Both the position numbers and the translations under genes were made by a program. The notes under the pieces are model-generated. The model worked only from the letters and a program-made list of their open reading frames with translations, was not told where the DNA came from and made no database searches. From a virus, in IMG/VR virus record IMGVR_UViG_3300027734_002590, positions 37,663 through 101,662 of that record: a DNA stretch of 64,000 bases. One strand, written 5' to 3'. Positions 9,571-48,147 of this stretch are shown one piece after another. How positions within the stretch are numbered: position 1 is the stretch's first letter; each line of letters opens with the position of its first letter.

Positions 9571-9645
9571 TGGCGGGCCCTGCAGGAATTGAACCCACAT
9601 CGCATGGTTCGAAGCCACGTATTCTATCCATTGAACTAAGGGCCC
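9571..9645 (-). tRNA. tRNA-Arg (UCG)
   Basis: Full cloverleaf with a perfect 7-bp acceptor stem GGGCCCT/AGGGCCC, loop CTTCGAA giving anticodon UCG, and encoded CCA. Its 5' end overlaps the stop codon of the DUF5672-like gene by 10 bases. Confidence 0.92.
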
Positions 9646-11065: not shown

Positions 11066-11073
11066 TGTTGTTC

Positions 11074-11598: not shown

Positions 11599-11619
11599 AA
11601 TAACCTTAAATGAAAATGC

Positions 11620-11697
11620 TGGTGCCCCCACACGGACTCGAACCGCGGACCTACGGTTTACAAAACCGTTGCTCTACCAACTGAGCTATAAGGGCGC
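11620..11697 (-). tRNA. tRNA-Thr (UGU), first copy
   Basis: Canonical D arm AGCTCAGTTGGTAGAGC, anticodon loop TTTGTAA in a perfect ACGGT/ACCGT stem, T arm with TTCGAGT, encoded CCA. The acceptor stem has G:G and T:T mismatches, so it is somewhat degenerate. Confidence 0.88.
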
Positions 11698-11718
11698 ATC
11701 TTTACTTATTTCTAAATA

Positions 11719-11815
11719 TGGTACGGCTGGGAGGTTTCGAACCTCCAAAGGCGATGACTAAGTCGATGCCCCGTCCTGCTTAACGCAGAGGTCTGCCTAT
11801 TCCACTTACAGCCGC
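11719..11815 (-). tRNA. Long-variable-arm tRNA, Leu-like, aberrant anticodon loop
   Basis: 97 bases, acceptor GCGGCTG/CAGCCGT, T arm GGAGG-TTCGAAA-CCTCC, discriminator A and CCA. The variable arm is about 27 bases. The only well-paired anticodon stem gives loop CGTTAAG: position 33 is G instead of U and the nominal anticodon is UUA, which would read UAA. Isotype cannot be assigned safely. Confidence 0.6.
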
Positions 11816-11866
11816 ATATATAATTATACGTAATTCTAAAAATATAAGCAACCATTGACTAGACTA

Positions 11867-11873
11867 TTAAATA
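11867..11873 (+). promoter_or_regulatory. Late-type promoter, leaderless (TTAAATA-N5-ATG)
   Basis: TTAAATA ends five bases before the ATG at 11879. Same spacing as the promoters of 13098, 16328, 19030, 20557, 35350, 51176 and 63790. Confidence 0.65.
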
Positions 11874-11878
11874 TTCAC

Positions 11879-12499
11879 ATGAAAACATTACACGAAATCA
11901 ACAACGAACTAAAAGCTCTATACGGTGAAACCAGTTTAGATTTTACCGATAAGAGTGCAGATTCCGGGCATAGCTACTTGTCTTTTTATGAAAAATACTT
12001 CCAACCAAAACGAACTGACGAAATCCGTATGTTAGAAATTGGCATCAGTATTGGCGGAAGTGCCTACTTGTGGGGGCAGTATTTTACTAATTTTGATTAT
12101 TATAGTTTTGACATTGCTGGAGGTTATGCTGTATTAAGACCTTTCCAAGCGGAAATTGAAGCTGACGAGCGTATTAGTTTGTATTGGGGGTGTAGTGCGT
12201 TTGATCCAGAACTGGCAAAGCAGTTTGGTGAAGAGACAATGGACTTCATTATTGATGACGGTGACCACAGAGCAAATAGCCAGTGGCAAACGTTTCAAAA
12301 CTATTGGCCTCGATTAGCCAAAGGTGGAGTCTATTTTGTTGAAGATGTTGTAAACACCGAAACAGCCAAAAACTTTATTCCCCATTTAGAGAACTATCTT
12401 AAAGGCCGAGGTGATCAGTTTGAGATTGATACCTATTATGGTACACGTATCGCCGAAGGTAGACTTGACGATATTATTATTGCTATTACAAAAAATTAA
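11879..12499 (+). CDS. SAM methyltransferase / cephalosporin-hydroxylase-like
   Basis: 206 aa from the ATG at 11879 chosen by the promoter spacing; a TTG at 11855 would extend it. Core: EIRMLEIGISIGGSAYLWGQ, then DYYSFDIAGG, MDFIIDDGDHRANSQWQTF and LAKGGVYFVEDV. This is the pattern of macrolide and sugar O-methyltransferases related to cephalosporin hydroxylase. Plus strand, convergent with the oxygenase gene, overlapping it by four bases. Likely modifies a surface or virion glycan. Confidence 0.75.
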   Translation: MKTLHEINNELKALYGETSLDFTDKSADSGHSYLSFYEKYFQPKRTDEIRMLEIGISIGGSAYLWGQYFTNFDYYSFDIAGGYAVLRPFQAEIEADERISLYWGCSAFDPELAKQFGEETMDFIIDDGDHRANSQWQTFQNYWPRLAKGGVYFVEDVVNTETAKNFIPHLENYLKGRGDQFEIDTYYGTRIAEGRLDDIIIAITKN

Positions 12500-13098
12500 A
12501 TAACATCAAAGTTTATAATGCATCGGATGTCGCTAGTCGGCCCCGAGCTTGAATGATAGTATCTGCCATCAAATAAGACACATCGACCTTTCTTAGGACT
12601 AATGCGCTGTTTTACAGGCCATTGTACTCGAGAATAATCACTTCCAATTGGGACGTCATTGAACGTCTTATCAAAAATAAATGTATCTCCGTCTGTGTCG
12701 TTGACGTAGTAAAGACACACTAGATGATCCTTGCCAAAGTCCACATGAACGTTATCGTACTCTTTACGTAGTTTATCTGCTAGTGGGATATGCATAAAAC
12801 TACGGGCTTGTATAATCATTTTTGGAGTGACATTAATCTTAGCAAACGCTTCAAACATTAAAGGTAGCGTGAGATTATAAAGCGGACTTCGGATGCCACC
12901 AGAATCAACATCAAAAAAGATATGGCTTAACCCTGGGGTTAAGCCATTGATGTTTTTCATAGCCTTTGGGTCATTAACATCCAGCGCAATATCACGCTGG
13001 AAATGCCAAGGAGCATTTTGGTTAGTTAGTTCGTGTTCAATAAGGTCTTGATACCCTTTGCTGATCACATCGTCAATTACGTATATTTGATTTAGCAT
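12496..13098 (-). CDS. 2-oxoglutarate/Fe(II)-dependent oxygenase
   Basis: 200 aa. Double-stranded beta-helix signature: DNVHVDFGKDHLVCLYYVND supplies H-x-D, and KKGRCVLFDGRYYHSSSGP plus DIRCIINFDV supply the distal His and Arg for 2-oxoglutarate. Such enzymes hydroxylate proteins, bases or small molecules. T4-like phages often carry several. The ATG lies five bases downstream of TAAATA, so a leaderless late message is expected. Confidence 0.82.
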   Translation of the reverse strand: MLNQIYVIDDVISKGYQDLIEHELTNQNAPWHFQRDIALDVNDPKAMKNINGLTPGLSHIFFDVDSGGIRSPLYNLTLPLMFEAFAKINVTPKMIIQARSFMHIPLADKLRKEYDNVHVDFGKDHLVCLYYVNDTDGDTFIFDKTFNDVPIGSDYSRVQWPVKQRISPKKGRCVLFDGRYYHSSSGPTSDIRCIINFDVI

Positions 13099-13103
13099 AA
13101 GGG

Positions 13104-13109
13104 TATTTA
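13104..13109 (-). promoter_or_regulatory. Late-type promoter, leaderless
   Basis: Minus-strand GTAAATACCCTT then ATG at 13098: TAAATA, five bases, start codon. Confidence 0.65.
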
Positions 13110-13116
13110 CGGACTG

Positions 13117-13695
13117 TTAGATTAGGCCTTCTTGATTTAGAACAATCTCAACTTCGGTTGGAAGTTCAATCTCAGTTCTAACATTCAACTCAAGAATCTC
13201 ATCGTTGATTCTTTGTTTGGATTTTTTCAAATCCAATACTTGAGCTTTGAAACCACTAATCTGTTCTTGTGTCAAGACACCTGTGCTAACGGTATCGCTA
13301 TAGCCATAAAGGCTACGACGGCTGTTCTCGCCTTTTTCGGCTTTAAGTTTTTCAACTTTACCGTTGATAACCACCATGCTGTCTTGCACAGCATCTGCCT
13401 GTACAAGGGTAGCCAGTTGACCTAAACGCTTATCAATGTAAGCGGCCTTGGCCAGTCGATCGTTAATACCACTCATGGCATTAGCAGAGCCCACTAGGCT
13501 ACGGATGTCATACAGACATGCTGTTAGACTTGCACGACGATTGTCGCTATTGATTGTGTTGGCATTTGCTTTAGCCAATACTTCTGCTGTATCTTCAAAC
13601 TCGTTAAGTTCTGCCTTAACAGTTACCTCAACAGCCTTGATTGCATCTTGGATGCCAGACTGGAGTGCGGATGCTTTACGTAGGGTTACTTTCAT
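13117..13695 (-). CDS. Hypothetical helical protein, 192 aa
   Basis: The frame is open to 13776, but the ATG at 13695 has AAAGGAAAAG upstream and removes an implausible N-terminus. The protein starts MKVTLRKASALQSGIQDAI and is almost wholly alpha-helical with heptad-like runs (ISGFKAQVLDLKKSKQRIND), ending in an acidic beta tail. Highly charged and soluble. Function unknown; it is the first gene after the large non-coding region, whose transcript may form its leader. Confidence 0.75.
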   Translation of the reverse strand: MKVTLRKASALQSGIQDAIKAVEVTVKAELNEFEDTAEVLAKANANTINSDNRRASLTACLYDIRSLVGSANAMSGINDRLAKAAYIDKRLGQLATLVQADAVQDSMVVINGKVEKLKAEKGENSRRSLYGYSDTVSTGVLTQEQISGFKAQVLDLKKSKQRINDEILELNVRTEIELPTEVEIVLNQEGLI

Positions 13696-30405: not shown

Positions 30406-32448
30406 TTATTTCTCATGTGCGACAAACTCGCCGTTCCAATTGTCGCCTAGATCTTGTTGTTTCATAAAGTCGCAACGTTCAATCCACATTTTATAGTACT
30501 TGTCCATTTGTCCGCCAAAGTTGCCTTTTAGTTTTTTACACATTGCCGCGGCTTCGTCAAACTTTTTCTGTTTGTACAAGGCATGCATCGCTTCGTGATG
30601 CTCTTTGTCTTTACTATAATCAACACCGCGTGTGCGTAGTGCTGTGTAGATCAAATCTGCTACTGTCTTACCTTTTGGTTGTAAGTTGTCTAACATTAGA
30701 TAGAAGAAGTCGTCTTTAGTACGATTGTAAGTTTCAGCACCGATGATACATAACACACCATAAGCCTTACAACGTGCTTCTAGTCGTGCCGCAGTACTAA
30801 CCATATCGCCTAAGATGTCATAGCTGTGTCGTTCTGTTGAACCCATTTCACCAATAAAGCCGATACCCGAGTTACAACCCCAACCCATTGCGGCTGGTGG
30901 TAAACCTTGTGCTTCCATTAGCTTAGTGTACTCGTCTACTTTGTCCAACATCTCTAGTCCCACTTTAACGATAGTACAAGCATGATTAGGATCTTCAATA
31001 GGGGCACCGTGTATATGCATACTTGCATCGCCTACATACTTGATAACCATACCTTTGTTGTCTAACATTGGTTGGCTAATAGCATCCATGTAACCGTTCA
31101 TGTACTTGCCAAGTCCAGCAACATCATCACCATAGTGTTCACCAATTGGTGTAAAACCACGCAAGTCACTAAACATAACTGATACGTCTTTACGTACACC
31201 ACGCTTGATTAAGTCTGGATCTTTTTGTAGTAACTCTACAACTTCCTTACTACAGTAGCCAGCAAACTGTTTCTTAATTGCCTGCTTCTGTAAGAACTCG
31301 CTTACAAACTTAACACCGTAAGCATGAAGCAGAATAAGAGTAGTACCCACAGCAATGGCAGTAATGTCAACAAGCCAAAGATCATGCGTGTAAACATACT
31401 GAGATAAAGGATACAAAACACCAAGAGCGATAACGCCACTAGCAAGTCCAACATAAGTCCACCTTGTTAAAAAGAGTAAAGCTATGCCCAATACTGCTAG
31501 GGCTATAATTTCTGCGCCATCTGCCCAATCAGGACGTTGTATAACAACTCCGTTCATCATGGTGCCTATAACAGCGGCTTGTACATCATGAGGCCATATT
31601 GCGCCTTTGCTTGTTGGTAATGGGTTACCGATACCTGCGGCTGTAGGTCCTACTATAACAATAGCACCTTCTAAATCTTTTGGTAAGTTAGTTAAACTAA
31701 AACTGCGATTCTGTTGACTCCAGTCAATCCACACACGACCTAGGTTGTCTGTAGTAACAGGACCAAACTTAGGTATACGCATTTTTTCAACTCCGCCTTC
31801 GAATAGTTTAACTTGGAAGGTTGTGTCGCCTGCGGCAACACGTAGAGTTTCTAAACTCATCGCCGGATATAGTTTGCCATCAACTGATACGATTAAAGGC
31901 ATACGGCGATTAACACCATCAATCTCTGGGAGTGTGTTTACAATGCCAACACCTGCCGCAGTATTTTCTAAACTTGGTATGTTAGCAATAAGTCCCGGAT
32001 ACTGTACTATTTGATCTAACCACTCTGGACCTAGTACAGCACTACCTGGTACACGCGGAGTATTTTTTGTTTTGTTACTAGGTACTGATCCTAGTACGAC
32101 TGGATAATGTTTAAGAGCGGTGGCCAGATCGCGATCCCCACCAGTACGATCGCGCTCAGCCATAAGCACATTGAGCACAACAAGGCCAGCATTGCGATGA
32201 TAAAGGTCTTCAATAATTTCAGCATAGTTAACCCTCGGTAGTGGCCATTGGCCGTATTTGTCTAAACTAGCTTCGTCAATGTTAACTGTGACAATGTTGT
32301 TAAATGTTGGAGCTTTGTTAATGATCAGTGTGTCAAAGTAGCGTAGTCTTACGCTTTCAACAAATGTAGGGTCTGCAATGCGTATGCCCAGTACTAACGC
32401 AAGGGTTAGTAGTGCAGTCCATGGGCTTAATAGAAGTTTTTTAAGCAT
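30406..32448 (-). CDS. CHASE2-domain class III adenylate cyclase
   Basis: 680 aa. N-terminal membrane helix, CHASE2 periplasmic sensor (about 30-300, e.g. VTVNIDEASLDKYGQWPLPR), a group of membrane helices near 305-385, and a cyclase domain from about 415. Metal aspartates are in VMFSDLRGFTPIGE and KYVGDASMHIHG; RHSYDILGDMVSTAARLEAR carries the Asp, and the Lys before YVGD completes the pair that selects ATP. So cAMP synthesis is predicted. A complete sensor cyclase is unusual in a phage. Near the curli module; the ATG is four bases after a TAAATA box. Confidence 0.92.
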   Translation of the reverse strand: MLKKLLLSPWTALLTLALVLGIRIADPTFVESVRLRYFDTLIINKAPTFNNIVTVNIDEASLDKYGQWPLPRVNYAEIIEDLYHRNAGLVVLNVLMAERDRTGGDRDLATALKHYPVVLGSVPSNKTKNTPRVPGSAVLGPEWLDQIVQYPGLIANIPSLENTAAGVGIVNTLPEIDGVNRRMPLIVSVDGKLYPAMSLETLRVAAGDTTFQVKLFEGGVEKMRIPKFGPVTTDNLGRVWIDWSQQNRSFSLTNLPKDLEGAIVIVGPTAAGIGNPLPTSKGAIWPHDVQAAVIGTMMNGVVIQRPDWADGAEIIALAVLGIALLFLTRWTYVGLASGVIALGVLYPLSQYVYTHDLWLVDITAIAVGTTLILLHAYGVKFVSEFLQKQAIKKQFAGYCSKEVVELLQKDPDLIKRGVRKDVSVMFSDLRGFTPIGEHYGDDVAGLGKYMNGYMDAISQPMLDNKGMVIKYVGDASMHIHGAPIEDPNHACTIVKVGLEMLDKVDEYTKLMEAQGLPPAAMGWGCNSGIGFIGEMGSTERHSYDILGDMVSTAARLEARCKAYGVLCIIGAETYNRTKDDFFYLMLDNLQPKGKTVADLIYTALRTRGVDYSKDKEHHEAMHALYKQKKFDEAAAMCKKLKGNFGGQMDKYYKMWIERCDFMKQQDLGDNWNGEFVAHEK

Positions 32449-32529: not shown

Positions 32530-33558
32530 TTAAATGTTTTTGCGAGTAATTGTAGTCGGTTTCATTTCTATTAAATTATCTCTAAATATTTTCCAAGCCC
32601 GGGTCCAAGACCAACGTTGACTACCTTCTAGTACCCGATCTCTGTTTAGTCCAATACACCGATGCACAGCCGTTGCAAGATCTTCTTCTAAGAATCCTGT
32701 TACACCCGGCTCTACTACATCTTCCGGCCCCTGGCATGGGTAAGCCGCAACAGGTGTACCGCAGGCCATAGCTTCGATCATCACAATGCCAAATGTTTCC
32801 CAACGTGACGGAAATACAAATACATCGGCGTTGGCATAATATTCTGCTAGTTCTACCCCAGTTTTAAATCCCACAAATTCTACATCAGGATAGTCTTTTT
32901 CGTATTGTTCACGCATAGGGCCATCACCTACCATAATCTTACGACTCTTAGGATATTCAAGTTTAAAGAAATCTTCTAAGTTTTTCTCTTTACTTACACG
33001 ACTAACACATACAAGTACTTTCATATCGTTGTCTCTGTCTCTTAAGGCAGGAGAAAATATGCTACGATCCACTCCCCTAGTCCAGGGTATAACATCGCCA
33101 TCAAATCCATGATCACGTAACTCCTTTACCATAGTATCAGTAGTGGTCAATACCTTGCCACTGTGCTTATGGAACCAACGTACTAAAGGCCAAGTAAGAG
33201 CTTCAGGGATACCAAATAAGGCTCTAAGTCCTTCAGGGAACTTAGTATGATAAGCAGTATTGTACCGAAGATTATGTTTTGAAAGATATTTTCTAGCAGA
33301 CAGACCAATAGGACCCTCTGTGGCGATATGGATATAATCCGGACTGATCTCCTCAATCTTCTTGCCCATCGCCCTCGGATAGGCAATCTTGACTTCGTTG
33401 TAGCCAGGACAATCAAAGTAGCGGAAGTCCCCGGGAGTAATGTAAACAACGCGATAACCATCCAGAATCGCACAAGCCTCGATATTTTTGTAAGTTGTGA
33501 CAACGCCATTGATCTGCTCCGGTAAGTTATCTGTAATAATTAAAATCGTTTTTGTCAT
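32530..33558 (-). CDS. GT4 family glycosyltransferase
   Basis: 342 aa, GT-B fold. N-terminal domain INGVVTTYKNIEA; C-terminal nucleotide-sugar site VCVSRVSKEKNLEDFFKL, MVGDGPMREQYE and the E-x7-E motif in PSRWETFGIVMIEAMACGTP. Resembles GDP-mannose-dependent and sulfoquinovosyl-type lipid glycosyltransferases. It overlaps the ATP-grasp gene by ATGA and belongs to a trio with an LpxH-like phosphoesterase. Confidence 0.88.
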   Translation of the reverse strand: MTKTILIITDNLPEQINGVVTTYKNIEACAILDGYRVVYITPGDFRYFDCPGYNEVKIAYPRAMGKKIEEISPDYIHIATEGPIGLSARKYLSKHNLRYNTAYHTKFPEGLRALFGIPEALTWPLVRWFHKHSGKVLTTTDTMVKELRDHGFDGDVIPWTRGVDRSIFSPALRDRDNDMKVLVCVSRVSKEKNLEDFFKLEYPKSRKIMVGDGPMREQYEKDYPDVEFVGFKTGVELAEYYANADVFVFPSRWETFGIVMIEAMACGTPVAAYPCQGPEDVVEPGVTGFLEEDLATAVHRCIGLNRDRVLEGSQRWSWTRAWKIFRDNLIEMKPTTITRKNI

Positions 33559-34445
33559 TGAGTCTTTAGTTTTATAAAATCTACAATACGCTGAGCCATG
33601 TCCTGACCGCAGTACTGATCCATGCCTTCAAAGCCCGGGCTTGAATTGGCTTCACAGATCTTGTAGCCGTCCTTGTCAAATAGTAGATCTACACCTGCTA
33701 TTTGCAGGCCCAGCACACGGGCAGTTTCACGTGCCAAATAATCCACTTCGTCTGTAACTTCAAATAGTTCAGCAGTGCCGCCTTGACTGATGTTGGCACG
33801 AAAGTCGCCTTCAGTACCAATACGTTTCATAGCCACTACTGTCTTGCCTCCAATAACCCATACACGGAGATCCGTACCAGGTTGCGCATCCACAAACTCC
33901 TGTATGATCATGGTTTTCTTTAAACTGATACTAGATAACAAACTCATTAGGCTGATAAAGTCTTTTTTGGTTTGACACAAATGCACAGTTTTGCCCTTGC
34001 TACCGCTAGTGGCCTTGACCACACAAGGAAACCCAATTTCTTTTTCAATCAGCTCAACATCGACATCTCCGTTAACCAATATGGTTTTTGGAATGGGCAA
34101 ATTTTCTTTAACTAATAATTGACTAGTCAATAACTTGTCGGACACACGACTTATACTGTCGGCGTCGTTGTATACAGGAATACCAAATTTTTCAATTTGT
34201 CGCATTACTGAACGTGTGAAATAGTTAGTACCAGCACCTGTCCTACTTAGCACTAGATCTGGTAGTTCAATCTTTTCACCTTTGTAACGTATGCTTTTAG
34301 AACTGCTACGACTCACAATAATATCAAAATATTTAGGTTCAAGAACACGACCTTGCATGCCATTCTTTTCTAAACATTTCAATAGCTGTTGATTTTCGTA
34401 TGCATCAATACCTGAAGCATAATGCAAGATCCATACTTGTTTCAT
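33555..34445 (-). CDS. RimK/LysX-type ATP-grasp ligase
   Basis: 296 aa from the ATG at 34445. ATP-grasp landmarks: SDKLLTSQLLVKENLPIPKT, FPCVVKATSGSKGKTVHL (ATP-binding loop), IIQEFVDAQPGTDLRVWVIG and YKICEANSSPGFEGMDQY (metal site). RimK-like enzymes add amino acids, often glutamate, to proteins or cofactors. In a phage it could modify S6-like ribosomal proteins or peptides. Overlaps the small acidic gene upstream; substrate unknown. Confidence 0.87.
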   Translation of the reverse strand: MKQVWILHYASGIDAYENQQLLKCLEKNGMQGRVLEPKYFDIIVSRSSSKSIRYKGEKIELPDLVLSRTGAGTNYFTRSVMRQIEKFGIPVYNDADSISRVSDKLLTSQLLVKENLPIPKTILVNGDVDVELIEKEIGFPCVVKATSGSKGKTVHLCQTKKDFISLMSLLSSISLKKTMIIQEFVDAQPGTDLRVWVIGGKTVVAMKRIGTEGDFRANISQGGTAELFEVTDEVDYLARETARVLGLQIAGVDLLFDKDGYKICEANSSPGFEGMDQYCGQDMAQRIVDFIKLKTQ

Positions 34446-34452
34446 TATAGAT

Positions 34453-34602
34453 TTACTCAGTTGTATCTTCTTCGTCTTCAACTAAGTCGTCAAAGTCTTC
34501 GGGTAGATCTTCTTCGTCTACGGGTGCTACTACACCAGGCTGAGCAGGTGGGGTAAACATACTGAACCAAGCAAACGGATTAAAAATATTAAACCACATC
34601 AT
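34453..34602 (-). CDS. Small acidic-tail protein, 49 aa
   Basis: Starts MMWFNIFNPFAWFSMFTPPA, then a Pro-rich link and a strongly acidic C-terminus. The acidic tail (glutamate/aspartate-rich) could be a substrate for or partner of the adjacent ATP-grasp enzyme, which is inference only. Start overlaps the end of the LpxH-like gene; GGAGAAAG precedes it. Confidence 0.55.
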   Translation of the reverse strand: MMWFNIFNPFAWFSMFTPPAQPGVVAPVDEEDLPEDFDDLVEDEEDTTE

Positions 34603-35350
34603 CTTTCTCCTTTGTCCATGTAATTATCTCCCAGCGGCCGTCATGGTGCTCAACTAAGGCTGTGCATGATTCGACCCAGTCCCCGTCATTCATGTATGTG
34701 ATGCCATTGATATCTTTGATCTCTGCGTGATGTATGTGTCCACATATAACACCATCGTATCCACGCTTCTTGCAATAGCCTGCTAGATTCTTTTCAAATT
34801 GAAACATAAAGTCACTGGCCTTCTTGACTCTATGCTTGAGATATTTACTAAGGCTCCAGTATCCAAAGCCTAATTTATGACGCACCCAATTGAACTTGCT
34901 GTTCCAGTCTAATACTAGGTCATATAACTTATCACCAAGAAATGCAAGCCAAGGAGCAAGACGAGTAATACCGTCAAATAGATCACCATGTGTAACCAAA
35001 TAGTGTTTGCCATCTGCACCTATATGTTCTGTTTGATTTTGTATTTCAATAAGGCCAAATGAGAAACCATATGGTATCATTGGTCTTAAAAACTCATCGT
35101 GATTACCTGCTATGAATACCACACGAGTTCCACGTTTGGCATGACCAAGTACACGTCGAACTACATTGGTATGACTTTGTTTCCAACGCCATTTGTTTTG
35201 TTGTATCTTCCATGCGTCAATGATATCACCAACAAGATAAAGTGTATCGCATGTGTTGTGTTTGAGGAAGTTGTTGAGCTTGTCTGCTTGACAATCTCGT
35301 GTGCCTAAGTGTACATCAGAAATAAAAATGCTACGATAAGTTTTCTGCAT
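34589..35350 (-). CDS. LpxH-like UDP-2,3-diacylglucosamine hydrolase family phosphoesterase
   Basis: 253 aa calcineurin-like enzyme: SIFISDVHLGTRDCQADKLN, LYLVGDIIDAWK, VVFIAGNHDEFLRP, LVTHGDLFDG and GVICGHIHHAEIKD. This spacing and HGD motif match the LpxH/UDP-diacylglucosamine pyrophosphatase family. Acts on lipid A precursor or a related phospho-lipid. In bacteria such genes often neighbour a GT4 gene, as here. Leaderless promoter, ATG five bases after TAAATA. Confidence 0.85.
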   Translation of the reverse strand: MQKTYRSIFISDVHLGTRDCQADKLNNFLKHNTCDTLYLVGDIIDAWKIQQNKWRWKQSHTNVVRRVLGHAKRGTRVVFIAGNHDEFLRPMIPYGFSFGLIEIQNQTEHIGADGKHYLVTHGDLFDGITRLAPWLAFLGDKLYDLVLDWNSKFNWVRHKLGFGYWSLSKYLKHRVKKASDFMFQFEKNLAGYCKKRGYDGVICGHIHHAEIKDINGITYMNDGDWVESCTALVEHHDGRWEIITWTKEKDDVV

Positions 35351-35655: not shown

Positions 35656-35814
35656 TTATCTCAAAAATTTAGATAAAACCCATAATATCGGAAACCACCC
35701 CAACATCAGTACAGGTGCCAGGATCATTCCTTGTATAAGTTTGGCTCGTTGTTCTGCTTCACGTTCTTTAGTTCTTTGGCGTTCATATTCTATTTGTTGT
35801 TGGGTTGAATACAT
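35656..35814 (-). CDS. Small membrane protein at the end of the curli operon, 52 aa
   Basis: Charged Gln/Glu/Arg-rich N-terminus (MYSTQQQIEYERQRTKEREA) and a C-terminal membrane helix (MILAPVLMLGWFPILWVL). It starts two bases from the stop of the large curlin-repeat gene, so it is in the same unit. Function unknown. Confidence 0.6.
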   Translation of the reverse strand: MYSTQQQIEYERQRTKEREAEQRAKLIQGMILAPVLMLGWFPILWVLSKFLR

Positions 35815-35815
35815 A

Positions 35816-37177
35816 TTAATATCCTTGTCTTATTGTGATAGGGGCACACCCGCCTGCTGTGGCACATGATGTAGTAACACTTACATTTTGTCCACCGTTT
35901 TGTTGTAGAATAACACTTGCTGGCCCTCCAGCATTTGTTAAGTCTAACGTAGCTCGGTTAGCTAACGAGCCTTCCTGTACAGCACTAATGCTATTGCTAT
36001 TGCCAGTTAATTTGTTTTCTAAGTAATGTTGACCTGTACCTTTTTGTATGGCTTCGACAGTATTGTTGTTGCCTGCAATACTATTAAACATTATTTTATT
36101 ACCGTTATCTGTCTGTCGGGCTGTAACACTATTTTGATTACCATTTATAGTGGTTTCTATGTAGTGTCCACCAACTCCGCCTGTGTTGCTTTGCTGTGTA
36201 GTTAATGTATTATTAGATCCGTTGATATCTACATTTTGATAGTGTCCGTTCCCGCCTGAAGCAGAGCCCTGTGTTGTCCGTGCTTGGTTAATATTAAGTG
36301 TATTACTATCCCCAACTACATTAAAATTAACTTCATTTTGACCTATTCCGCTTACACCTTGATTTAACGTAATGCTGTTAGAGCTACCTTGTATTGTAGC
36401 GTACTGAGTTCCGTTACCACCAATAAGGTTTTTACCTCCGGTCTGATTTATGGTCACAGTATTGTTATTACCACTAACTTGATCAATGTAAATTTTATTG
36501 CCATCTGCAACTGTTTTATTTGCCCAAGCAGTTACTTTATTTTGTTGAGAGGTAGTTATTGTAGTTGTTTCGGTAAATGTCATAGTACCGGCTGTACCGC
36601 CACCGATAGTAACATAAGTCGGATATTGAGGAGGCGGTGGCGTTGCAGGTTGTGCTGTTTGGCCTGCGGCTAATGGAGTTGTGCTTCCGTTGGTTGCGTA
36701 TGCGTTGACTTGTGCCACTGTTGGGTTCAATGTGCCAGTCCACGATACACCGTTGGTGTTAGAAAACCCCTGAGTCATACTAAACAACTGTCCAGTGTCG
36801 TTATCATTTCCAACGAAGAAGAAATAGTCTGCACCCATATTGATAATATGTCCAGTACCCATAACTGCCTTTTGTGTTCCGTTAGCAGTATATTGAATTG
36901 CGTTCCACGGATTAGTAGAATCCCCAGTTGCTACAAATTTAACATAGTCTCCAGCACCCCAGGTTAGCTGTCCGTTATACCAAGGAATCATATATGCGGT
37001 TCCAGGATTTTTACTATAGATTTGGCAAGTTGCTGTTTGTGTACACGCCTGCACATTCCATTGGCTATCTGCTATTTGTGCTTGTCCAAACTTTAAATCA
37101 GCCAAGCCAGATGCTTGACTGTATGCAGTAATGCATAACATACACAGTATGAAGAAAAGCAGGATAGAACGTTTCAT
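35816..37177 (-). CDS. Large curlin-repeat protein with N-terminal extra domain
   Basis: 453 aa with signal peptide (cleavage near AYSQA). Residues 25-200 form a non-repeated domain; residues 230-440 carry about eight curlin-type repeats with the pattern G-x-N-N-x-V-x-I-x-Q (e.g. VSGNNNTVTINQTG, VGDSNTLNINQ, IAGNNNTVEAIQKG). Curlin repeats stack into beta-solenoid amyloid. Larger than CsgA/CsgB (about 150 aa); the extra domain may cap, anchor or bind. It overlaps the FecR gene's stop by one base and would be exported through CsgG. Confidence 0.85.
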   Translation of the reverse strand: MKRSILLFFILCMLCITAYSQASGLADLKFGQAQIADSQWNVQACTQTATCQIYSKNPGTAYMIPWYNGQLTWGAGDYVKFVATGDSTNPWNAIQYTANGTQKAVMGTGHIINMGADYFFFVGNDNDTGQLFSMTQGFSNTNGVSWTGTLNPTVAQVNAYATNGSTTPLAAGQTAQPATPPPPQYPTYVTIGGGTAGTMTFTETTTITTSQQNKVTAWANKTVADGNKIYIDQVSGNNNTVTINQTGGKNLIGGNGTQYATIQGSSNSITLNQGVSGIGQNEVNFNVVGDSNTLNINQARTTQGSASGGNGHYQNVDINGSNNTLTTQQSNTGGVGGHYIETTINGNQNSVTARQTDNGNKIMFNSIAGNNNTVEAIQKGTGQHYLENKLTGNSNSISAVQEGSLANRATLDLTNAGGPASVILQQNGGQNVSVTTSCATAGGCAPITIRQGY

Positions 37178-38286
37178 TATTTTTGTGTTAATGATATTAT
37201 GGTATTGTTACCTTGATTAACACGGTTCTTAAATTCAATATTATTTTGTGTCATATATAATGTTGAATTTTGAGTTTGAGGTGTTGTTATACACATACGA
37301 TCAGCACCGTTATCACGACATAGTGTAACTGTCGGATCGTCCTTGGTAACAATGATGCCACTGGCTTTTTTATAGTCAGGCAACATACTGTCAACTTCTT
37401 CTAGCAATTTTTCATTAAGGGCATTACCAACCATGTCAAACATATTGGCTAGAAAATTATTATCTAAAAAATTACGACTAAGTTTGTCTTGGAAGAATTG
37501 ACGAGCACTATCATCTAGCGCATTAGTAAGTCCTTGCTCTTTTAGGAAATCAACATCCAACGGACCACGCATATCTCTACGTTGGTCTTTGTTATTGTCT
37601 TTTTTCATTTCATCAGGAGTTGATATTAATAAACTTTCAATAGCATTTTCGCTAAGGTTTAATGTTACAGGTTTACTAGGAGGAGAGCTACGACTGTTTA
37701 CTTTAGTTGCTTGAAATGGTTGATTTAGGATAACCATTCCAGCATCTGTTTCTACGCTGATCTCTCCTGTATGACAACTTGACTCAATGTCTTTAATTGA
37801 TCGTGTAGTTCTATTTGTGGGACAGCTGGGCAACAATATAACTGTTGACTGTCCGAGTTCGTCTACTGAGGCTGTGAAGTCTGTGCCACGTACAGAGATA
37901 GTTGCTGTTGGGGTATTAAGTGCTACGTTCTGTGGGCTGTTCTTGGCAATCTGTCCACTAGCATAACGAACAGTACCTAATGCCATCTTAGCACTTAGTT
38001 TACCGCTTTTACTTTTTGGATCGTAGACAAAATCGTCAATTACAAGTTTACTATTTTCGTTAACTTGAACTTTTGTATCATCTTGGAAAGTTATTCCTAA
38101 TTTTCCCGACTGCGTTCTGATCGAGTCGTTCATCTCCACTCCTGTGCCCTTGGCGCCCGTTAGTGTTTGTTTGTCCCGCTGGATGCTGGCCGGTGTGTTG
38201 ACCTGCTCGGTTACTGTTCCGACTGCGGCGCGACTCAACGAGGTACTTAGCAACAGCGAGCATAGTACGACTATCCATGTTTTCAT
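37177..38286 (-). CDS. FecR-domain exported protein with C-terminal curlin-like repeat
   Basis: 369 aa with signal peptide (ends LSRAAVGT). FecR-type beta region about 50-170: KLGITFQDDTKVQVNENSKL, GKLSAKMALGTVRYASGQIA, NTPTATISVRGTDFTASVDE. A helical middle follows, and the C-terminal ~30 residues (FKNRVNQGNNTIISLTQK) look like one curlin repeat. FecR domains relay signals or bind murein/surface polymers. The repeat end suggests co-assembly with the fibre. Same operon as the curlin genes. Confidence 0.8.
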   Translation of the reverse strand: MKTWIVVLCSLLLSTSLSRAAVGTVTEQVNTPASIQRDKQTLTGAKGTGVEMNDSIRTQSGKLGITFQDDTKVQVNENSKLVIDDFVYDPKSKSGKLSAKMALGTVRYASGQIAKNSPQNVALNTPTATISVRGTDFTASVDELGQSTVILLPSCPTNRTTRSIKDIESSCHTGEISVETDAGMVILNQPFQATKVNSRSSPPSKPVTLNLSENAIESLLISTPDEMKKDNNKDQRRDMRGPLDVDFLKEQGLTNALDDSARQFFQDKLSRNFLDNNFLANMFDMVGNALNEKLLEEVDSMLPDYKKASGIIVTKDDPTVTLCRDNGADRMCITTPQTQNSTLYMTQNNIEFKNRVNQGNNTIISLTQK

Positions 38287-38459
38287 TCTTCACCTTTTTC
38301 GAACCAGGTATATTTTTGCAATTCTCTCATGATATTGTCGCCCGTTGTACCATACTGTTTGGCCGCAAATTCTACAAACGAGCACCAGTCACGGAGGTAG
38401 TCTGGATTGCCCTGCATCCATGCCTGGTACATGTGCTGTAGTGTACGCAAGTCTATCAT
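38283..38459 (-). CDS. Small protein in the curli operon, 58 aa
   Basis: MIDLRTLQHMYQAWMQGNPD at the start, helical, acidic/aromatic. No signal peptide, so cytoplasmic. ATG lies one base after the stop of the curlin gene and its TGA overlaps the FecR start. Helper of unknown function. Confidence 0.65.
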   Translation of the reverse strand: MIDLRTLQHMYQAWMQGNPDYLRDWCSFVEFAAKQYGTTGDNIMRELQKYTWFEKGEE

Positions 38460-38460
38460 G

Positions 38461-39312
38461 TTACTGTTTTTGTGTTATACTATATGTGTTAGTATTAGAC
38501 GCATTACCCGAACTACCTAATTTCAAATTAAACACGTTAGCATTTGCAGAACCTGTTTGACTTAGTGTAATAGTGTTTCCAGTACCATTAACATCCATCC
38601 ATGCTTGATGGCCTGTTGATCCGCCTGAACCACTCTGAGCAATGTCAACAGTATTTGTTGCACCTTCTAATTTTACATAAACATTTCCGTTGTCACCTGT
38701 TAAGTTAGTAGTTACGCTGTTAGCTGTACCACCGGATGTCGTAATATCTTGTCTTGTTCCAGTAGCATCAACTGTTGAAATTAATGTAGCGCCGCCACCA
38801 CTTTGTGTAGCAGTTAATTGATTATCACTGCCTACCATACTAACATTAGCAGTATTGCTACCGTTCAACTGCGTAACACTAACAATAGTATCACTAGCTC
38901 TTGAATTACTAGTACCTAATTGGAATGTTGCCAAGTTATTGCTTCCACTTATGTTACCACTATTAACGGTACTATAAGTTAAATCAACACTCTTGCTAGT
39001 ACCCATAGTAGCATCAATTCCTAACCCCATTTTGTTGTTACTACCAGTTTGATTGATATTAACATTAACACCATCACCTCTAATAAGAGCAGGGTCCGTT
39101 GGACTGTTAATTGAAACAGACGAAGATAACCCTTTAACTTGGTTACCGGCCCCGTCCTGATTAATTGTAACGTTTGTAAAATCACCTGCCTGATCAATGT
39201 AAATGCTATTGTCAGCCGCTAACAGTGAGCCCGATGATAGCATCCCAGCCATCATTAGAATTGTAAGTAATTTTCTCGACAACTTACCAGCGCCTTTGAT
39301 TCTTTGTTCCAT
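38461..39312 (-). CDS. Curlin-repeat protein (CsgA/CsgB-like)
   Basis: 283 aa with signal peptide (…GSLLAADN). Curlin-like repeats of about 20-30 residues: IYIDQAGDFTNVTINQDGAG, GDGVNVNINQTGSNN, VSMVGSDNQLTATQSGG, WMDVNGTGNTITLSQTG and a final TNTYSITQKQ. Ser/Thr/Asn/Gly-rich between repeats. Predicted exported amyloid subunit. First gene of the lower half of the module, with an intergenic region of 192 bases upstream. Confidence 0.85.
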   Translation of the reverse strand: MEQRIKGAGKLSRKLLTILMMAGMLSSGSLLAADNSIYIDQAGDFTNVTINQDGAGNQVKGLSSSVSINSPTDPALIRGDGVNVNINQTGSNNKMGLGIDATMGTSKSVDLTYSTVNSGNISGSNNLATFQLGTSNSRASDTIVSVTQLNGSNTANVSMVGSDNQLTATQSGGGATLISTVDATGTRQDITTSGGTANSVTTNLTGDNGNVYVKLEGATNTVDIAQSGSGGSTGHQAWMDVNGTGNTITLSQTGSANANVFNLKLGSSGNASNTNTYSITQKQ

Positions 39313-39504
39313 CTTATTACAGAATTAGGTTGCAACACCTTGTTTGTAATTGTTTACAAACGCTTAGTTCTACCCTAACTCAGCTCCTTGGTCAATGACC
39401 ATATATTGTACTGCTATTTTATTTAAACACCTTTGCCTCTCAATAATACTATGCTGTTATTTTTACAACATGTAAAAAAATTAACATGTAAAAATTACAA
39501 CACC
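39313..39504 (-). promoter_or_regulatory. Intergenic region of the curlin genes with TTGTAA palindromes
   Basis: Contains TTTGTAA-TTG-TTTACAAA (about 39348-39366) and further on repeats of ACATGTAAAAA with TTTTTACAAC (about 39452-39500). These resemble the GTTGTA/TACAAC sites at 24.5-24.7 kb. A TTTAAATAA box occurs near 39420. Likely promoter/operator region of the curlin operon. Confidence 0.4.
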
Positions 39505-40731
39505 TTACTCTAACTTATCAGCTCGAATCCAACCACCACGGTCAGTTCCGTCTGCTATGTTTACTCTCCACCAACCTTCTGTTCCTGGTTGTCTTACACT
39601 TACTATACTACCTTTGGGAAACCACCATTTCTTCGTACCCGCTTCGTTTTCACTTGCGTACAAATACGATCCCTCTTTTAGTTTCTTCTCACCAAATAAC
39701 GGCCTTGCAGTATCTTGTGCCATTTTGCTTTCATTTGGCTTAATGTCTTTTTCTACTTTCTTTTCTATCTTTACTTCTGAGGAGGTACTGGGTACGGCCT
39801 CGGGCTTGGTTTCGGTGACGGCTTGCGGTTGAACCACGACATCTTTCTTCTCCTCCTGTTTCTTTATTTCAGAACTTATAACAGGAGCAACTGGTTGTGT
39901 TGGGATAAACGACATTGCTGGAGGTTCTTTGACTTCTGGTTTGTAATCCCATACTCCTTTGCGCTGTCCCTCTTTAATCAATTCAACTACTGCCATTTCT
40001 GTTGCGGCTTTGACTGCGTATGTGCCGGGCTCGTTAATAGTTAAGCCGGCTTCTGCTTCAAATGATTGTGTAGCATTATCAAAGAATTTTAATGCTGTTA
40101 CGCTATCGCCAGTACTTAAAATTGTTTTTTGTACTGTAACGGTTATTAGCACCTTACCTGTGTTTACACTAACTGCTCGTAAACTTACTGTTACGGTGTC
40201 TGAACTCCACTGTGTCTGTTTACCAATACCAAATATACGCATACCAGCACCACCGCTGGTTGTACTTGTGTCATAACCTACAATACCGCCTTCAATAATC
40301 ATTCCGGCGAACTGCATTGGCATTAGTGGTTTGGCATTGTTGCCCTCATAGGCTTCACGCATCTGACGAATAATTAATCTTTCTTTAGTTAAGTTATCAA
40401 TACCTACACGTTCAACAACTTCAAACCAGCGTCCTTGCCCTACATCGCTTAGAGCTTTGATTAAGAATGTTTCAGCACCTTGCGTAACGGCAGTACTTAA
40501 ACTTGCTACGTTGGCTTGTGGACGGCGCTGTCCAGTCTTGTCTTGGAAACTATATACTGCCACGCTAATAGGTTTACCTGCGGCAGGTGCAGGCATACTA
40601 TCAAATTCTTTCTTAATATTTTCACGTTGCCCGGTTACAGTAGGGTCGGTCTCATTTAGGCCAGTGCTTTGTATTACAGCACAGCCACTGATCATTGTTG
40701 CTATCAATAATGCAATTAAATTCTTTTTCAT
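39505..40731 (-). CDS. csgG: CsgG-type curli secretion channel with C-terminal SH3-like domain
   Basis: 408 aa. Lipoprotein signal with lipobox ISGC. CsgG/HfaB domain about 45-265: ISVAVYSFQDKTGQRRPQAN, WFEVVERVGIDNLTKERLII, GIVGYDTSTTSGGAGMRIFG, ITVTVQKTILSTGDSVTAL. CsgG is a nonameric outer-membrane pore for curli subunits. Unusually, a Lys/Glu/Pro-rich linker (about 270-340) leads to an SH3-like domain (YLYASENEAGTKKWWFPKGS, WWRVNIADGTDRGGWI). The extension is absent in E. coli CsgG (277 aa). Partner CsgF is encoded directly upstream. Confidence 0.93.
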   Translation of the reverse strand: MKKNLIALLIATMISGCAVIQSTGLNETDPTVTGQRENIKKEFDSMPAPAAGKPISVAVYSFQDKTGQRRPQANVASLSTAVTQGAETFLIKALSDVGQGRWFEVVERVGIDNLTKERLIIRQMREAYEGNNAKPLMPMQFAGMIIEGGIVGYDTSTTSGGAGMRIFGIGKQTQWSSDTVTVSLRAVSVNTGKVLITVTVQKTILSTGDSVTALKFFDNATQSFEAEAGLTINEPGTYAVKAATEMAVVELIKEGQRKGVWDYKPEVKEPPAMSFIPTQPVAPVISSEIKKQEEKKDVVVQPQAVTETKPEAVPSTSSEVKIEKKVEKDIKPNESKMAQDTARPLFGEKKLKEGSYLYASENEAGTKKWWFPKGSIVSVRQPGTEGWWRVNIADGTDRGGWIRADKLE

Positions 40732-40740
40732 GCCCTAGCC

Positions 40741-41220
40741 TTAAAATGTCCATTGATACATCGGAACAGTAATAGACGTTGGCGGTTGCCCGGGTTGATA
40801 AACAGTTATAGTAATGTTATCACCTGATGTTGCTTTTGACCATTCCATCCAAGTCATAGGAGTTCCGTCTGCATTTTTTGACATAACAAAACTACCTGAA
40901 GTAGGTGTAGTTCCATCTGCATTTGTTTTAAACATTGCAGATGCTAAATTTTGACTTATCTGTGCATACACACGAGATTCTAAGTTACTTAAAAACTTAG
41001 ACATATTGGTGTTTGCTTTATCTGCGGCGGCTTTATCTACTGCGGCCTGTATTTGATCACGAACTGCTTTTTGCCTTGTGTACTCTTGATTTTCTATAGT
41101 TAAGACGTGAGAACTATAACCAGACCCAGTAAAGGCTGGACTTTTAAATGAATAGTCGGCTAGAGGTGCCGCATTTAATAATAGTGGAAATACCCCGAGT
41201 GTTAGGGCAAGTATACGCAT
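40741..41220 (-). CDS. csgF: CsgF-like curli assembly protein
   Basis: 159 aa. Signal peptide (MRILALTLGVFPLLLNA), then the N-terminal plug-like segment YSFKSPAFTGSGYSSHVL, helix KFLSNLESRVYAQISQNLAS and C-terminal strands ITITVYQPGQPPTSITVPMY, all in the order of CsgF. In E. coli the N-terminus of CsgF inserts into the CsgG pore and anchors nucleation. Strong ribosome site CGGAGGAG; nine bases before csgG. No csgE, csgC or csgD seen. Confidence 0.87.
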   Translation of the reverse strand: MRILALTLGVFPLLLNAAPLADYSFKSPAFTGSGYSSHVLTIENQEYTRQKAVRDQIQAAVDKAAADKANTNMSKFLSNLESRVYAQISQNLASAMFKTNADGTTPTSGSFVMSKNADGTPMTWMEWSKATSGDNITITVYQPGQPPTSITVPMYQWTF

Positions 41221-42998: not shown

Positions 42999-43004
42999 TA
43001 TTTA
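42999..43004 (-). promoter_or_regulatory. Late-type promoter
   Basis: Minus strand GTTAAATATTAGATT then ATG at 42991: seven-base gap. Confidence 0.55.
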
Positions 43005-43697
43005 ACCAATTTCCGGGAATAGAACTTCCTGCACAAAACGCTTAATTTTACCCTCTTCTATACCCATAGCAACCATACTGCGAACTACTTGGGGGTTCTG
43101 CTTTTGATAATGGCAATAGCGATTCTGTGCTTGATGGAAGTCAAAACCGCTATGTTGTGCTATACCTACGTTCTTTATGTAAAAATCTAGAGTTGTTTTG
43201 GCAAGATCACATAGTTGCTGTATTTCTAGTTCGCTACGTAAATTGCCGGCCGCTACCATTGCAGGGCTGAATATTTGTCGAGCCCATTCTGGTAGCTCTC
43301 GTGGTTTATTCCACTCCAAATCATTAACCTGGGCTTTAAACCACAAGTACATAGGACTCAATGGATCTCCGCTAATACTATAGTCGTGGAATGCTCCTGT
43401 TATTTTATTGCGGCCGCAGACAGCGTCAAACCCGAATATAGGACTAGAGTCATTAGTGTGCGGAAACACAGTGGTGTGCAGGATATACATCCCGTGACTT
43501 TCACGTTTGTCTACAATTTCAACGTGTGCTCTACGGTATCGTGAGCTAGACCAAAGAGAATTGTGCCATTCATAATCGCTAACATCCTGGCTGATCAACT
43601 CACCTGTGTTGTTAAACACGTTAGTAAAGTGTTCAGATAGTTCTTCTATCTGCGTCCAAGCTTCAATCGATGTTAGGGAGTCTGTCATTGAATTCAT
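43002..43697 (-). CDS. Ferredoxin-dependent bilin reductase (PcyA/PebS/PcyX family)
   Basis: 231 aa. Core W-x-x-S-x-R-Y-R-R-A-H-V-E; the PcyA catalytic trio aligns with E60 (RAHVEIVDK), H74 (YILHTTVFP) and D91 (PIFGFDAV), and the H-to-D spacing of 17 equals that of PcyA. Reduces biliverdin to a phyco-bilin using ferredoxin. It overlaps the heme oxygenase gene by 35 bases, giving a heme-to-bilin cassette. The phage PcyX type is known to make phycoerythrobilin; which product is made here cannot be told. A second in-frame ATG is at 43688. Confidence 0.85.
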   Translation of the reverse strand: MNSMTDSLTSIEAWTQIEELSEHFTNVFNNTGELISQDVSDYEWHNSLWSSSRYRRAHVEIVDKRESHGMYILHTTVFPHTNDSSPIFGFDAVCGRNKITGAFHDYSISGDPLSPMYLWFKAQVNDLEWNKPRELPEWARQIFSPAMVAAGNLRSELEIQQLCDLAKTTLDFYIKNVGIAQHSGFDFHQAQNRYCHYQKQNPQVVRSMVAMGIEEGKIKRFVQEVLFPEIG

Positions 43698-44202
43698 TCA
43701 TTATTCTAATTGCCCAGTTGAACGATTTTAATGCTTCTTCGCCCAAGCTGTCATCTAATTTTGCACGGATCTTTTCTTTAAGTCCGTCACCATCTTTAAA
43801 TTCTAAATTGCGATGGGGTGGAGGCAAAATTTTCTTAATCATTTGACCACCAAATAAGTCGCCCATATGCCAAGTGTATAAGTGAGCCAGTACTTGTCCT
43901 TTTGGGAGATCTAAAATGTAACGATGGTATTCAATTGCGCCGGGAGTAAACTTGCCGTCAAATCTATTTTCGCAAAGATCTTTGTAGTCTTGGTATAGTT
44001 TGTATGCACGATCGATATCTGGTAGATCGTCTAGTAGCCCTTCGGAGCGGGCTTTAGTTTCGATAGCACCATACCATAACATTTTGTTGTAGGTAAAGTC
44101 TTTCCATACATCAACTGGCATCTGCTTTTTAAAAACAGAACGCATGAATTTAGTATCCTCTGCGGCCTGATGTACTTCTTTGGTAATTTCTTTTAAGCTC
44201 AT
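43663..44202 (-). CDS. Heme oxygenase
   Basis: 179 aa, alpha-helical. The proximal His is likely in KEVHQAAEDTKFMRSVF (H11), and the distal-helix glycine motif is seen as YTWHMGDLFGGQMIKKIL. Cleaves heme to biliverdin, CO and iron with a ferredoxin-type donor. Size suits the bacterial/cyanobacterial HO family (usually 200-240 aa, here slightly short). A TATAAATA box at 44221 and AGGAG ribosome site precede it; it heads the bilin cassette. Confidence 0.88.
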   Translation of the reverse strand: MSLKEITKEVHQAAEDTKFMRSVFKKQMPVDVWKDFTYNKMLWYGAIETKARSEGLLDDLPDIDRAYKLYQDYKDLCENRFDGKFTPGAIEYHRYILDLPKGQVLAHLYTWHMGDLFGGQMIKKILPPPHRNLEFKDGDGLKEKIRAKLDDSLGEEALKSFNWAIRIMNEFNDRLPNID

Positions 44203-46283: not shown

Positions 46284-46994
46284 TTAGAATGCTTTGCTTA
46301 CAGAAACAACAAATGTGTCTTTGTATAACTTTTGACCGTTTACGGTATTTGTAGCGTTGAATGAGCTACCTTGATTGCTGTTTGTGTAATACTTACCAGC
46401 AATATCCCAACCTTGTAAATTGTAAACAGCACCGACGTTCCAGTCAGTGTAGTTTAAGCCACTGTTGTTGTTAACATCAGTACGGCCGGCGTGAGCAACG
46501 GCGCTCAATTTACCAACGATTGGCTGAACTAAATCAACTTGATAGTATTGTGAGTTTTTACTGTTAGTAGTACCGAAGTAGTTGCTCAAAGAATTACTTG
46601 CTTTGAATGTAACTGGACCTTTGCCAACTGCAACATAAAGTTCGTTAGTGTCAAAGTTAGTACTAGTACCATTAGTAGCACGTGGATAAAAGTAGTTCAT
46701 TGAACCAACGTCTAAATCAAATCCCAAGAACTTGCTTTTGTAGCCAGCATATAGATCTGATTCAACGCCAGCACCATTACCGTAGAGTTCTGAACTTACG
46801 GAACTGTTCCAGTTACCGACGTATAAACCGCTTGAGTGAGCGTAGTCGATTCCACCTTGTACTGCTGGTGCGTTTTGAGTTTGGCTAACCCCACGGAATC
46901 TGTAGTCAGAGGTAAGAGACATATTGCCTGATACTTGAGCTTGTGCTGTGGCAAATCCTACTGCCAACATAAATGCTAAAAATAGCTTTTTCAT
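46284..46994 (-). CDS. TorF-family putative porin
   Basis: 236 aa with signal peptide (ends ATAQAQ). Mature start VSGNMSLTSDYRFRGVSQTQ is the family hallmark (TIGR02001/TorF): S-D-Y-R-F-R-G. Alternating beta strands and a C-terminal Phe (VVSVSKAF) as in outer-membrane barrels. Known from proteobacteria as diffusion pores. A phage copy may alter uptake or receptor display. Own sigma70 promoter and terminator, so it is independently expressed. Confidence 0.85.
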   Translation of the reverse strand: MKKLFLAFMLAVGFATAQAQVSGNMSLTSDYRFRGVSQTQNAPAVQGGIDYAHSSGLYVGNWNSSVSSELYGNGAGVESDLYAGYKSKFLGFDLDVGSMNYFYPRATNGTSTNFDTNELYVAVGKGPVTFKASNSLSNYFGTTNSKNSQYYQVDLVQPIVGKLSAVAHAGRTDVNNNSGLNYTDWNVGAVYNLQGWDIAGKYYTNSNQGSSFNATNTVNGQKLYKDTFVVSVSKAF

Positions 46995-47106: not shown

Positions 47107-48147
47107 TTAGATTAAGAATGTTATTGTGCCTGCTGTAGCAAGTAATAACGCTCCCCATCCGCCCAATGCTTTGTAATATGTGCTGATAGGTGTGCCGAAA
47201 TAACGGTTACCAATCATAACACACTTATGCGTAGGGCTAATGAGATAGCCAGCAAAGTCTAATGCAAAGAACCATAAGAAGTACTCTTGTCCAAAGACTT
47301 GAGACATAATTACAGCGATTGCAATAAACTTGCCGCTACTTCCCATTAGGAAGCTGGCAATAAAGCCGATAGCCGAAATAGCTACCATGCCAACGAAAGT
47401 ATGCGGATCAAGCACACTTGCCTTTAACATAGTTTGCCATGCGGCATCATAAGTTTTCATGTAGTTGCCTAAGGCGATAACTGCACCAACCCATGCTAAT
47501 ACATCCCAGCGAACATAGCCCAATAATTTCTTAATGTTCCATTGTTGGCTGATGATGATATAGTATAGGGTTAGGAAACCAAAACATCCAATCATCCATT
47601 TGCTTTCGTAGATGTACAAGCCAATGGCTACGAACATCGGTAAAACATTGCGAAGGACTGACGATAGTTTAAAGTTTCCTGGTGTAATTGTAATTTCTTC
47701 ATCATGCACTTGTGACCAAATGTACCAAGCGATGAATACAAAACTAACAACCAACAGTGGTGCGATTAGGCCAAGCCATGCACCATAAGTTAGACCAAAT
47801 GCCGCGATGGGTAGGATTACTGTTTTCTCGAGTGGCGACCACAAATAATAGTGGTGCGTACTCAAATAATCAACAATGCCTAACTTCTCACGGCCTGGTC
47901 CGTCTTTTGGTGCAACTGTGTCAAGCAGACCTGCTGACACAGTGACTCGACCTTCAATTGGCAGAACTCCACCAATTGCGCTTAAGAGTACTACAACGAA
48001 CCTGTTGCTACGGAATGTGTTTCTTACATAGGCAAATGCTGGGGCAAATAGAGCGTACTCTTTTGCTAATCCAGCAGTGATCATAATGAAGAATATCATC
48101 CATAGATACGATATGTCCTTTAACAGGACGTTTGTGATGAAGTCCAT
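47107..48147 (-). CDS. DUF401-like polytopic membrane transporter
   Basis: 346 aa with about ten hydrophobic segments. Two related half-motifs: SAIGGVLPIEGRVTVSAGLL and SFLMGSSGKFIAIAVIMSQV, each with small residues in a broken helix, as in DUF401/ion-transporter superfamily proteins. Probably imports or exports an organic acid; substrate unknown. AAGGAG ribosome site; ends at its own terminator. Transporter genes of this size are rare in phages. Confidence 0.7.
   Translation of the reverse strand: MDFITNVLLKDISYLWMIFFIMITAGLAKEYALFAPAFAYVRNTFRSNRFVVVLLSAIGGVLPIEGRVTVSAGLLDTVAPKDGPGREKLGIVDYLSTHHYYLWSPLEKTVILPIAAFGLTYGAWLGLIAPLLVVSFVFIAWYIWSQVHDEEITITPGNFKLSSVLRNVLPMFVAIGLYIYESKWMIGCFGFLTLYYIIISQQWNIKKLLGYVRWDVLAWVGAVIALGNYMKTYDAAWQTMLKASVLDPHTFVGMVAISAIGFIASFLMGSSGKFIAIAVIMSQVFGQEYFLWFFALDFAGYLISPTHKCVMIGNRYFGTPISTYYKALGGWGALLLATAGTITFLI

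Follow-up and report, generated by a model that had tools for sequence, protein, structure and literature searches.

The DNA considered here, hereafter the window, is a stretch of 64,000 nucleotides (positions 37,663 to 101,662 of the IMG/VR virus record IMGVR_UViG_3300027734_002590) carrying homologues of the curli secretion genes csgF and csgG together with genes for secreted curlin-repeat proteins and a FecR-domain protein. An earlier note on this DNA had described a near-complete curli export module on a phage, a view borne out by the profiles, the gene order and the phage genes of the record. All seven genes of the block lie on the minus strand, running from 41220 to 35656 at the coordinates which that note had given, but the range it assigned to the block was too short: the module extends past 35656, via an inserted cassette, to a CHASE2-domain adenylate cyclase that had been missed. 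From csgF to its downstream end, the module comprises:

40741..41220, minus strand: csgF homologue, 159 amino acids (aa), Sec signal; PF10614 25.9 bits, phrog_35372 155 bits
39505..40731, minus strand: csgG homologue, lipoprotein of 408 aa with an ISGC lipobox; PF03783 159 bits
38461..39312, minus strand: curlin-1, secreted curlin-repeat protein of 283 aa; PF07012 17.9 bits in 4 stretches
38283..38459, minus strand: small protein of 58 aa without signal peptide; no profile match, relatives in 12 loci (some relatives only)
37177..38286, minus strand: secreted FecR-domain protein, 369 aa; PF04773 40.7 bits, phrog_37870 418 bits
35816..37177, minus strand: curlin-2, 453 aa, signal peptide; PF07012 22.2 bits
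35656..35814, minus strand: open reading frame for a 52-aa protein with a single C-terminal hydrophobic segment; relatives in 7 loci, no convincing family match
30406..32448, minus strand: adenylate/guanylate cyclase of 680 aa with a CHASE2 domain, closing the module downstream; PF05226 134 bits, PF00211 52.5 bits

Profile searches supported the CsgG, CsgF and curlin-repeat assignments, CsgF standing at its Pfam cut-off and curlin-1 below it (cut-offs of 20.8 bits for CsgG PF03783, 24.0 for FecR PF04773, 20.7 for curlin PF07012 and 25.8 for CsgF PF10614), and the FecR protein named in the earlier note was recovered as well. PHROGs phage families, none of which has an assigned function, match CsgF, CsgG and FecR at 155, 310 and 418 bits. 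The CsgG match spans profile positions 6-207 of 210, indicating an intact CsgG domain, and aa 7-266 of the protein align with the solved CsgG of E. coli (E 6e-46). Its layout is that of a CsgG domain (aa 51-262), a linker and a C-terminal SH3-like domain (about aa 350-408); the lipobox was recognised by eye, and a simple scan retrieved one in 66 of 82 CsgG proteins. CsgG lengths fall into two classes (266-317 and 366-472 aa), the long tails bearing a bacterial SH3 domain (PF06347/PF08239); 7 out of 10 relatives' tails scored above the Pfam threshold for it, the window CsgG only weakly (13.7 bits). The C-terminus of CsgG being on the periplasmic side, it is reasonable to regard this SH3 tail as a cell-wall anchor. 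Where E. coli CsgG has the constriction residues Y51/N55/F56, the phages mostly have Q/S/L, and S or T/T/L prevails among the bacterial loci fetched; as these bacteria also differ from E. coli at the constriction, Q/S/L is not by itself a sign of an altered pore. The Pfam match of CsgF being marginal, we built a profile from the phage CsgFs and ran it on the neighbourhoods of bacterial csgG genes (75 loci), where in 67 cases it matched the immediate upstream neighbour of csgG with 21.6-126 bits. An N-terminal motif is clearly common to both groups, reading FKSPAFxGxGYSSH in phages and NPSFGGxxFNSxH in bacteria; a sequence search of solved structures with the CsgF family retrieved CsgF itself only at E 0.64.

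Both curlins show regular N/Q-spaced repeats behind a Sec-type signal peptide, the latter as had been claimed for them. Counts of the strand-turn motif N-x-hydrophobic-x-hydrophobic-x-Q gave 6 copies in curlin-1 versus 0.57 in shuffled sequence, and 10 in the C-terminal part of curlin-2 versus 0.82. Because the CsgF profile matches upstream of bacterial csgG and the curlin motif stands roughly 10-fold over its shuffled level, that the block is not a chance resemblance can be regarded as settled on sequence grounds. Curlin-2 consists of a variable N-terminal part (about aa 22-205) and a curlin-repeat domain (about aa 206-453). Among relatives the protein in this slot measures 191-852 aa and its N-terminal part ranges from absent to several hundred residues, with identities of 0.25-0.74 and insertions of up to 306 residues between relatives, whereas the C-terminal repeats align almost free of insertions; about 30% of the loci have a short protein of 191-248 aa in this slot, without the large N-terminal part.

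A protein scan of viral contigs retrieved 153 relatives, 80 of which were kept for counts; some of their loci are near-identical copies, so that not all counts are independent. Order and strand of csgF, csgG, curlin-1 and FecR are kept in 72 of the 72 loci holding all four, and the cyclase lies downstream in each of the 45 relatives having at least 7 kb of downstream DNA. The contigs of relatives reach up to 265 kb, some exceeding 200 kb. By a simple scan, Sec-type N-termini are present in 81/81 CsgF, 80/81 curlin-1, 75/75 FecR and 47/48 curlin-2 proteins. Pairwise ratios of nonsynonymous to synonymous substitution (dN/dS) for csgF, csgG, curlin-1, FecR, curlin-2 and the cyclase are mostly 0.04-0.3 (0.12-0.18 for curlin-1), indicating purifying selection, exact values being rough where, as in many pairs, synonymous sites are near saturation. 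The curlin genes are thus about as constrained as the pore genes, which argues that the substrates are maintained along with the channel. In one relative (L037, from 16426) the cyclase is found in two frames (110 and 585 aa), perhaps through a sequencing or assembly error; it is intact in the near-identical loci L035, L036 and L038.

The virus record, of 101,662 bases and possibly a fragment, also holds tail-fibre genes, a clamp loader, rIIA and 30 tRNAs. The record carrying the curli block is a phage, and this phage is large and T4-related; a search for DNA-level relatives among sequenced phages returned none.

The FecR protein has a Sec-type N-terminus and a FecR domain from residue 54, with neither a cytoplasmic anti-sigma domain nor a lipobox, and its AlphaFold model (predicted local distance difference test, pLDDT, of 70) matches the extracytoplasmic domains of the anti-sigma factors 4m0n and 6ovk. 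FecR lies within 5 kb of CHASE2 for 20 of 69 CHASE2 matches in 76 alphaproteobacterial genomes, against about 0.49 by random placement, a co-localisation some 40-fold above chance. FecR-CHASE2 clusters have been published for Campylobacterota, in a cyclic AMP (cAMP) cluster (PMC9239204), and for Burkholderia, where disruption of the FecR-CHASE2 operon BiofilmReg abolishes biofilm (PMC5192318). As in the phage, these clusters encode an extracytoplasmic FecR-domain protein beside a CHASE2 receptor; unlike in the phage, they have no tie to curli genes, and the BiofilmReg receptor is a histidine kinase with the FecR domain fused to LysM. On account of the bacterial co-localisation and the published clusters we interpret FecR and the cyclase as partners in periplasmic sensing, and the gene association makes it probable that the two work together. 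An iron-citrate regulator of the FecI-FecR-FecA type was rejected, as the cytoplasmic N-terminal anti-sigma domain is missing and the region 4 of extracytoplasmic function (ECF) sigma factors (PF08281) found no match in the record, possibly a fragment. Neither was the FecR C-terminal tail (ending ...NRVNQGNNTIISLTQK and modelled as stacked strands) supported as a curlin repeat: comparison with the curlin profile gave a 1-4% probability, near the values of column-shuffled controls, and the tail lacks the repeat motif. The FecR model also weakly matches a 'cell surface anchoring domain' fold (5ix9, E 0.02), which stays a lead only, a search with the FecR domain having given no sequence support for it.

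The phage curli module is of a kind already known, and the novelty implied by the earlier note is not supported. The Pelagibacter phage HTVC008M, the Methylophilales phage Melnitz and other pelagiphages carry the same order csgF-csgG-curlin-FecR-curlin-adenylate cyclase (PMC7029224, PMC9004378, PMC9599517), with FecR 41-43% and the cyclase 36-46% identical to those of the window, and likewise without CsgE (PMC9599517). In these studies the phage cluster was described and a 'sibling capture' proposed (PMC7029224), a lysis-timing pore was suggested (PMC9004378), and the curlins, FecR and cyclase were recognised and superinfection defence, aggregation or import put forward (PMC9599517). The putative roles offered in the earlier note, namely coating or aggregating cells, blocking superinfection and a lysis pore, all have precedents in these papers. 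The window differs from the pelagiphage group in a CsgG about 130 aa longer with its SH3-like end, in a cassette inserted before the cyclase and in the heme oxygenase and bilin reductase genes upstream. The CsgG tree places it among 24 viral sequences that form a clade of their own (support 100/99), separate from the group of HTVC008M and Melnitz. Our analysis therefore adds to the known modules a distinct, well-supported CsgG clade, the SH3 end on many of its CsgGs, a very variable curlin-2 N-terminus and the FecR-CHASE2 association.

With respect to bacteria, CsgG can be aligned along its length to the solved pore of the E. coli csgBAC-csgDEFG system and CsgF is recognisable, whereas CsgE was not found here and the constriction differs as described above. 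In alphaproteobacterial curli operons (Sphingomonadales, Caulobacterales and others), csgF immediately precedes csgG, with one or several curlin genes behind them. Among the bacterial loci fetched, phage-like contigs of metagenome-assembled genomes (MAGs) set aside, FecR and a CHASE2 cyclase occur only in Hyphomonas sp. TMED17 (L088); its csgF-csgG-curlin-FecR-CHASE2 cyclase genes (7474-13497), flanked by ordinary bacterial genes on a contig of 705 kb, are a bacterial equivalent of the phage module. A search of 104 further genomes from the same family gave no comparable FecR, which argues that such an operon is rare there. The window clade, the HTVC008M/Melnitz group and Hyphomonas TMED17 are united against other bacteria (support 98/97), the Hyphomonas row being a long branch whose exact place is unsure, and the module may have moved either from bacteria to phages or from phages to bacteria. 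Phage-type modules were also seen on short contigs of bacterial assemblies assigned to Rhodobacteraceae, Pirellulales, Flavobacteriaceae and Pelagibacter (L084, L085, L086, L087 and L091); as their CsgGs group with HTVC008M and Melnitz, the contigs probably derive from phages and were binned into MAGs. Brevundimonas phages of about 350 kb (ON529851-ON529860) encode a distant homologue of CsgG (28% identity), in most cases annotated as hypothetical, and a 1,499-base entry labelled Salmonella phage (OR851715.1), possibly a mislabelled environmental fragment, encodes a CsgG 41% identical to that of the window.

Beside the module genes lie two further gene groups, of which the downstream one, a variable cassette between curlin-2 and the cyclase recognised by Pfam matches, is present in a minority of relatives and is probably not part of the export machine:

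43002-44202, minus strand: heme oxygenase (PF01126, 60 bits) with a PcyA-like bilin reductase, a short way upstream of the curli block
34589-35350, minus strand: metallophosphoesterase (cassette 32530..35350; Pfam)
33555-34481, minus strand: RimK-like ligase (cassette; Pfam)
32530-33558, minus strand: GT4 glycosyltransferase (cassette; Pfam)

A 569-aa protein of unknown function accompanies the heme oxygenase and the bilin reductase upstream on the same strand; of 66 relatives with sufficient upstream DNA, 47 have these two enzymes close upstream as well. A hemO-pcyA/X cassette is known from aquatic phages (PMC11480375), a linkage to curli not being mentioned in the part of that report considered here. 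The late-type promoter that the block had been credited with was not confirmed: a T4-type late promoter for csgF was rejected, no core TATAAATA lying upstream of this gene, and sigma-70-like sites are no commoner than in shuffles. The core occurs three times in the window, always on the minus strand and without being over-represented, and its nearest copy, at 44228 (minus strand), precedes the start of the heme oxygenase gene by about 19 bases, from where transcription could run through to the curli genes. Minus-strand genes elsewhere in the window comprise other odd phage cargo, namely a DnaK-like chaperone gene (7532-9460; 642 aa; phrog_22485, 900 bits) whose product is at most 68% identical to phage-collection records, some of them labelled DnaK, a Gcw_chp protein (46284-46994; PF09694, 171 bits) and a DUF401 protein (47107-48147; PF04165, 37 bits).

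Taken as a whole, a phage-encoded type VIII (curli) secretion module with a signalling arm and a surface-changing benefit is the reading that we favour, if with some reserve; that the genes constitute an export module with curlin substrates is very probable, while whether extracellular fibres form during infection appears evenly balanced. Gene content, homology, gene order, secretion signals, purifying selection and the FecR-CHASE2 gene association are observed; channel assembly, secretion and the sensor link are what we infer. During infection, a channel would arise from CsgG, a lipoprotein pore of the outer membrane, and CsgF, a peptide associated with the pore and external chaperone. The two curlin-repeat proteins, exported by Sec, would pass through this channel to the surface of the cell and assemble there into amyloid-like material, with curlin-2 carrying its variable N-terminal part outward. 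Periplasmic FecR and the CHASE2 cyclase would act as a sensor pair whose cAMP output reports the state of the envelope or of curlin export. An altered surface of the infected cell, through aggregation or as a shield against rival phages, would be the likeliest benefit. It is tempting to speculate on a self-monitoring surface remodeller in which FecR reads curlin export or the envelope, cAMP from the CHASE2 cyclase times or tunes amyloid display and swappable curlin-2 N-termini are presented on the fibre, FecR-CHASE2 being a widespread and little-recognised envelope-sensing unit captured by phages along with curli; we regard this extension as doubtful.

Several observations weigh against the secretion module with its signalling arm. 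Curlin-1 stays below the curlin cut-off, no match to csgE was found in the whole record, possibly a fragment, as the earlier note had stated for this gene, and Melnitz-infected cultures showed no clumping in cytometry or electron microscopy (PMC9004378). The AlphaFold model of curlin-2 is of low confidence (pLDDT 61) with no significant fold match, and is too weak to give a fold for the N-terminal part. The bacterial FecR and CHASE2 matches counted above include proteins of other architectures and do not all represent one arrangement.

The missing CsgE gate and the lack of clumping with Melnitz would both suit the proposal that CsgG-CsgF was converted into a gated pore of the outer membrane that times or performs lysis (PMC9004378), with the curlins as passengers or plugs, and pore genes are indeed present in all these phage modules. 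A lysis pore, however, needs neither curlins nor a sensor, whereas throughout the clade both curlin positions are occupied and under constraint, with FecR and the cyclase always present, which renders this explanation improbable. The strong divergence of the curlin-2 N-terminal part in length and sequence, next to repeats that are near insertion-free, could instead denote a surface adhesin or decoy, the repeats serving as anchor and polymer scaffold rather than as a fibre and the N-terminal part binding phage, cell or polysaccharide; given the roughly 30% of loci whose short slot protein lacks this part, and the lack of a fold match for it, we consider such a role rather unlikely. An ungated channel might also admit larger nutrients such as heme, siderophores or cobalamin, for which the absence of CsgE, the name 'FecR' and the frequent heme oxygenase and bilin reductase neighbours could be invoked, but a FecR without a cytoplasmic part, the lack of an ECF-sigma region-4 match and the conserved curlins make this import route very improbable. 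Bacterial DNA misassembled onto a phage contig, a concern of the earlier note in whose favour the bacterial origin of the curli genes could be cited, has a negligible probability: the same record holds the phage genes and tRNAs listed above, and dozens of other viral contigs have the block too.

The secretion module with its signalling arm thus extends phage curli export beyond the published marine pelagiphage group to a second branch of large phages that keeps the module. As substrates, pore and sensor are kept together under purifying selection, they are expected to have a real job in infection rather than to represent a vestigial pore. The FecR-CHASE2 association offers a testable alternative to the published iron-regulation reading of these phage genes, and bears as well on the CHASE2 receptors, whose signals are mostly unknown.

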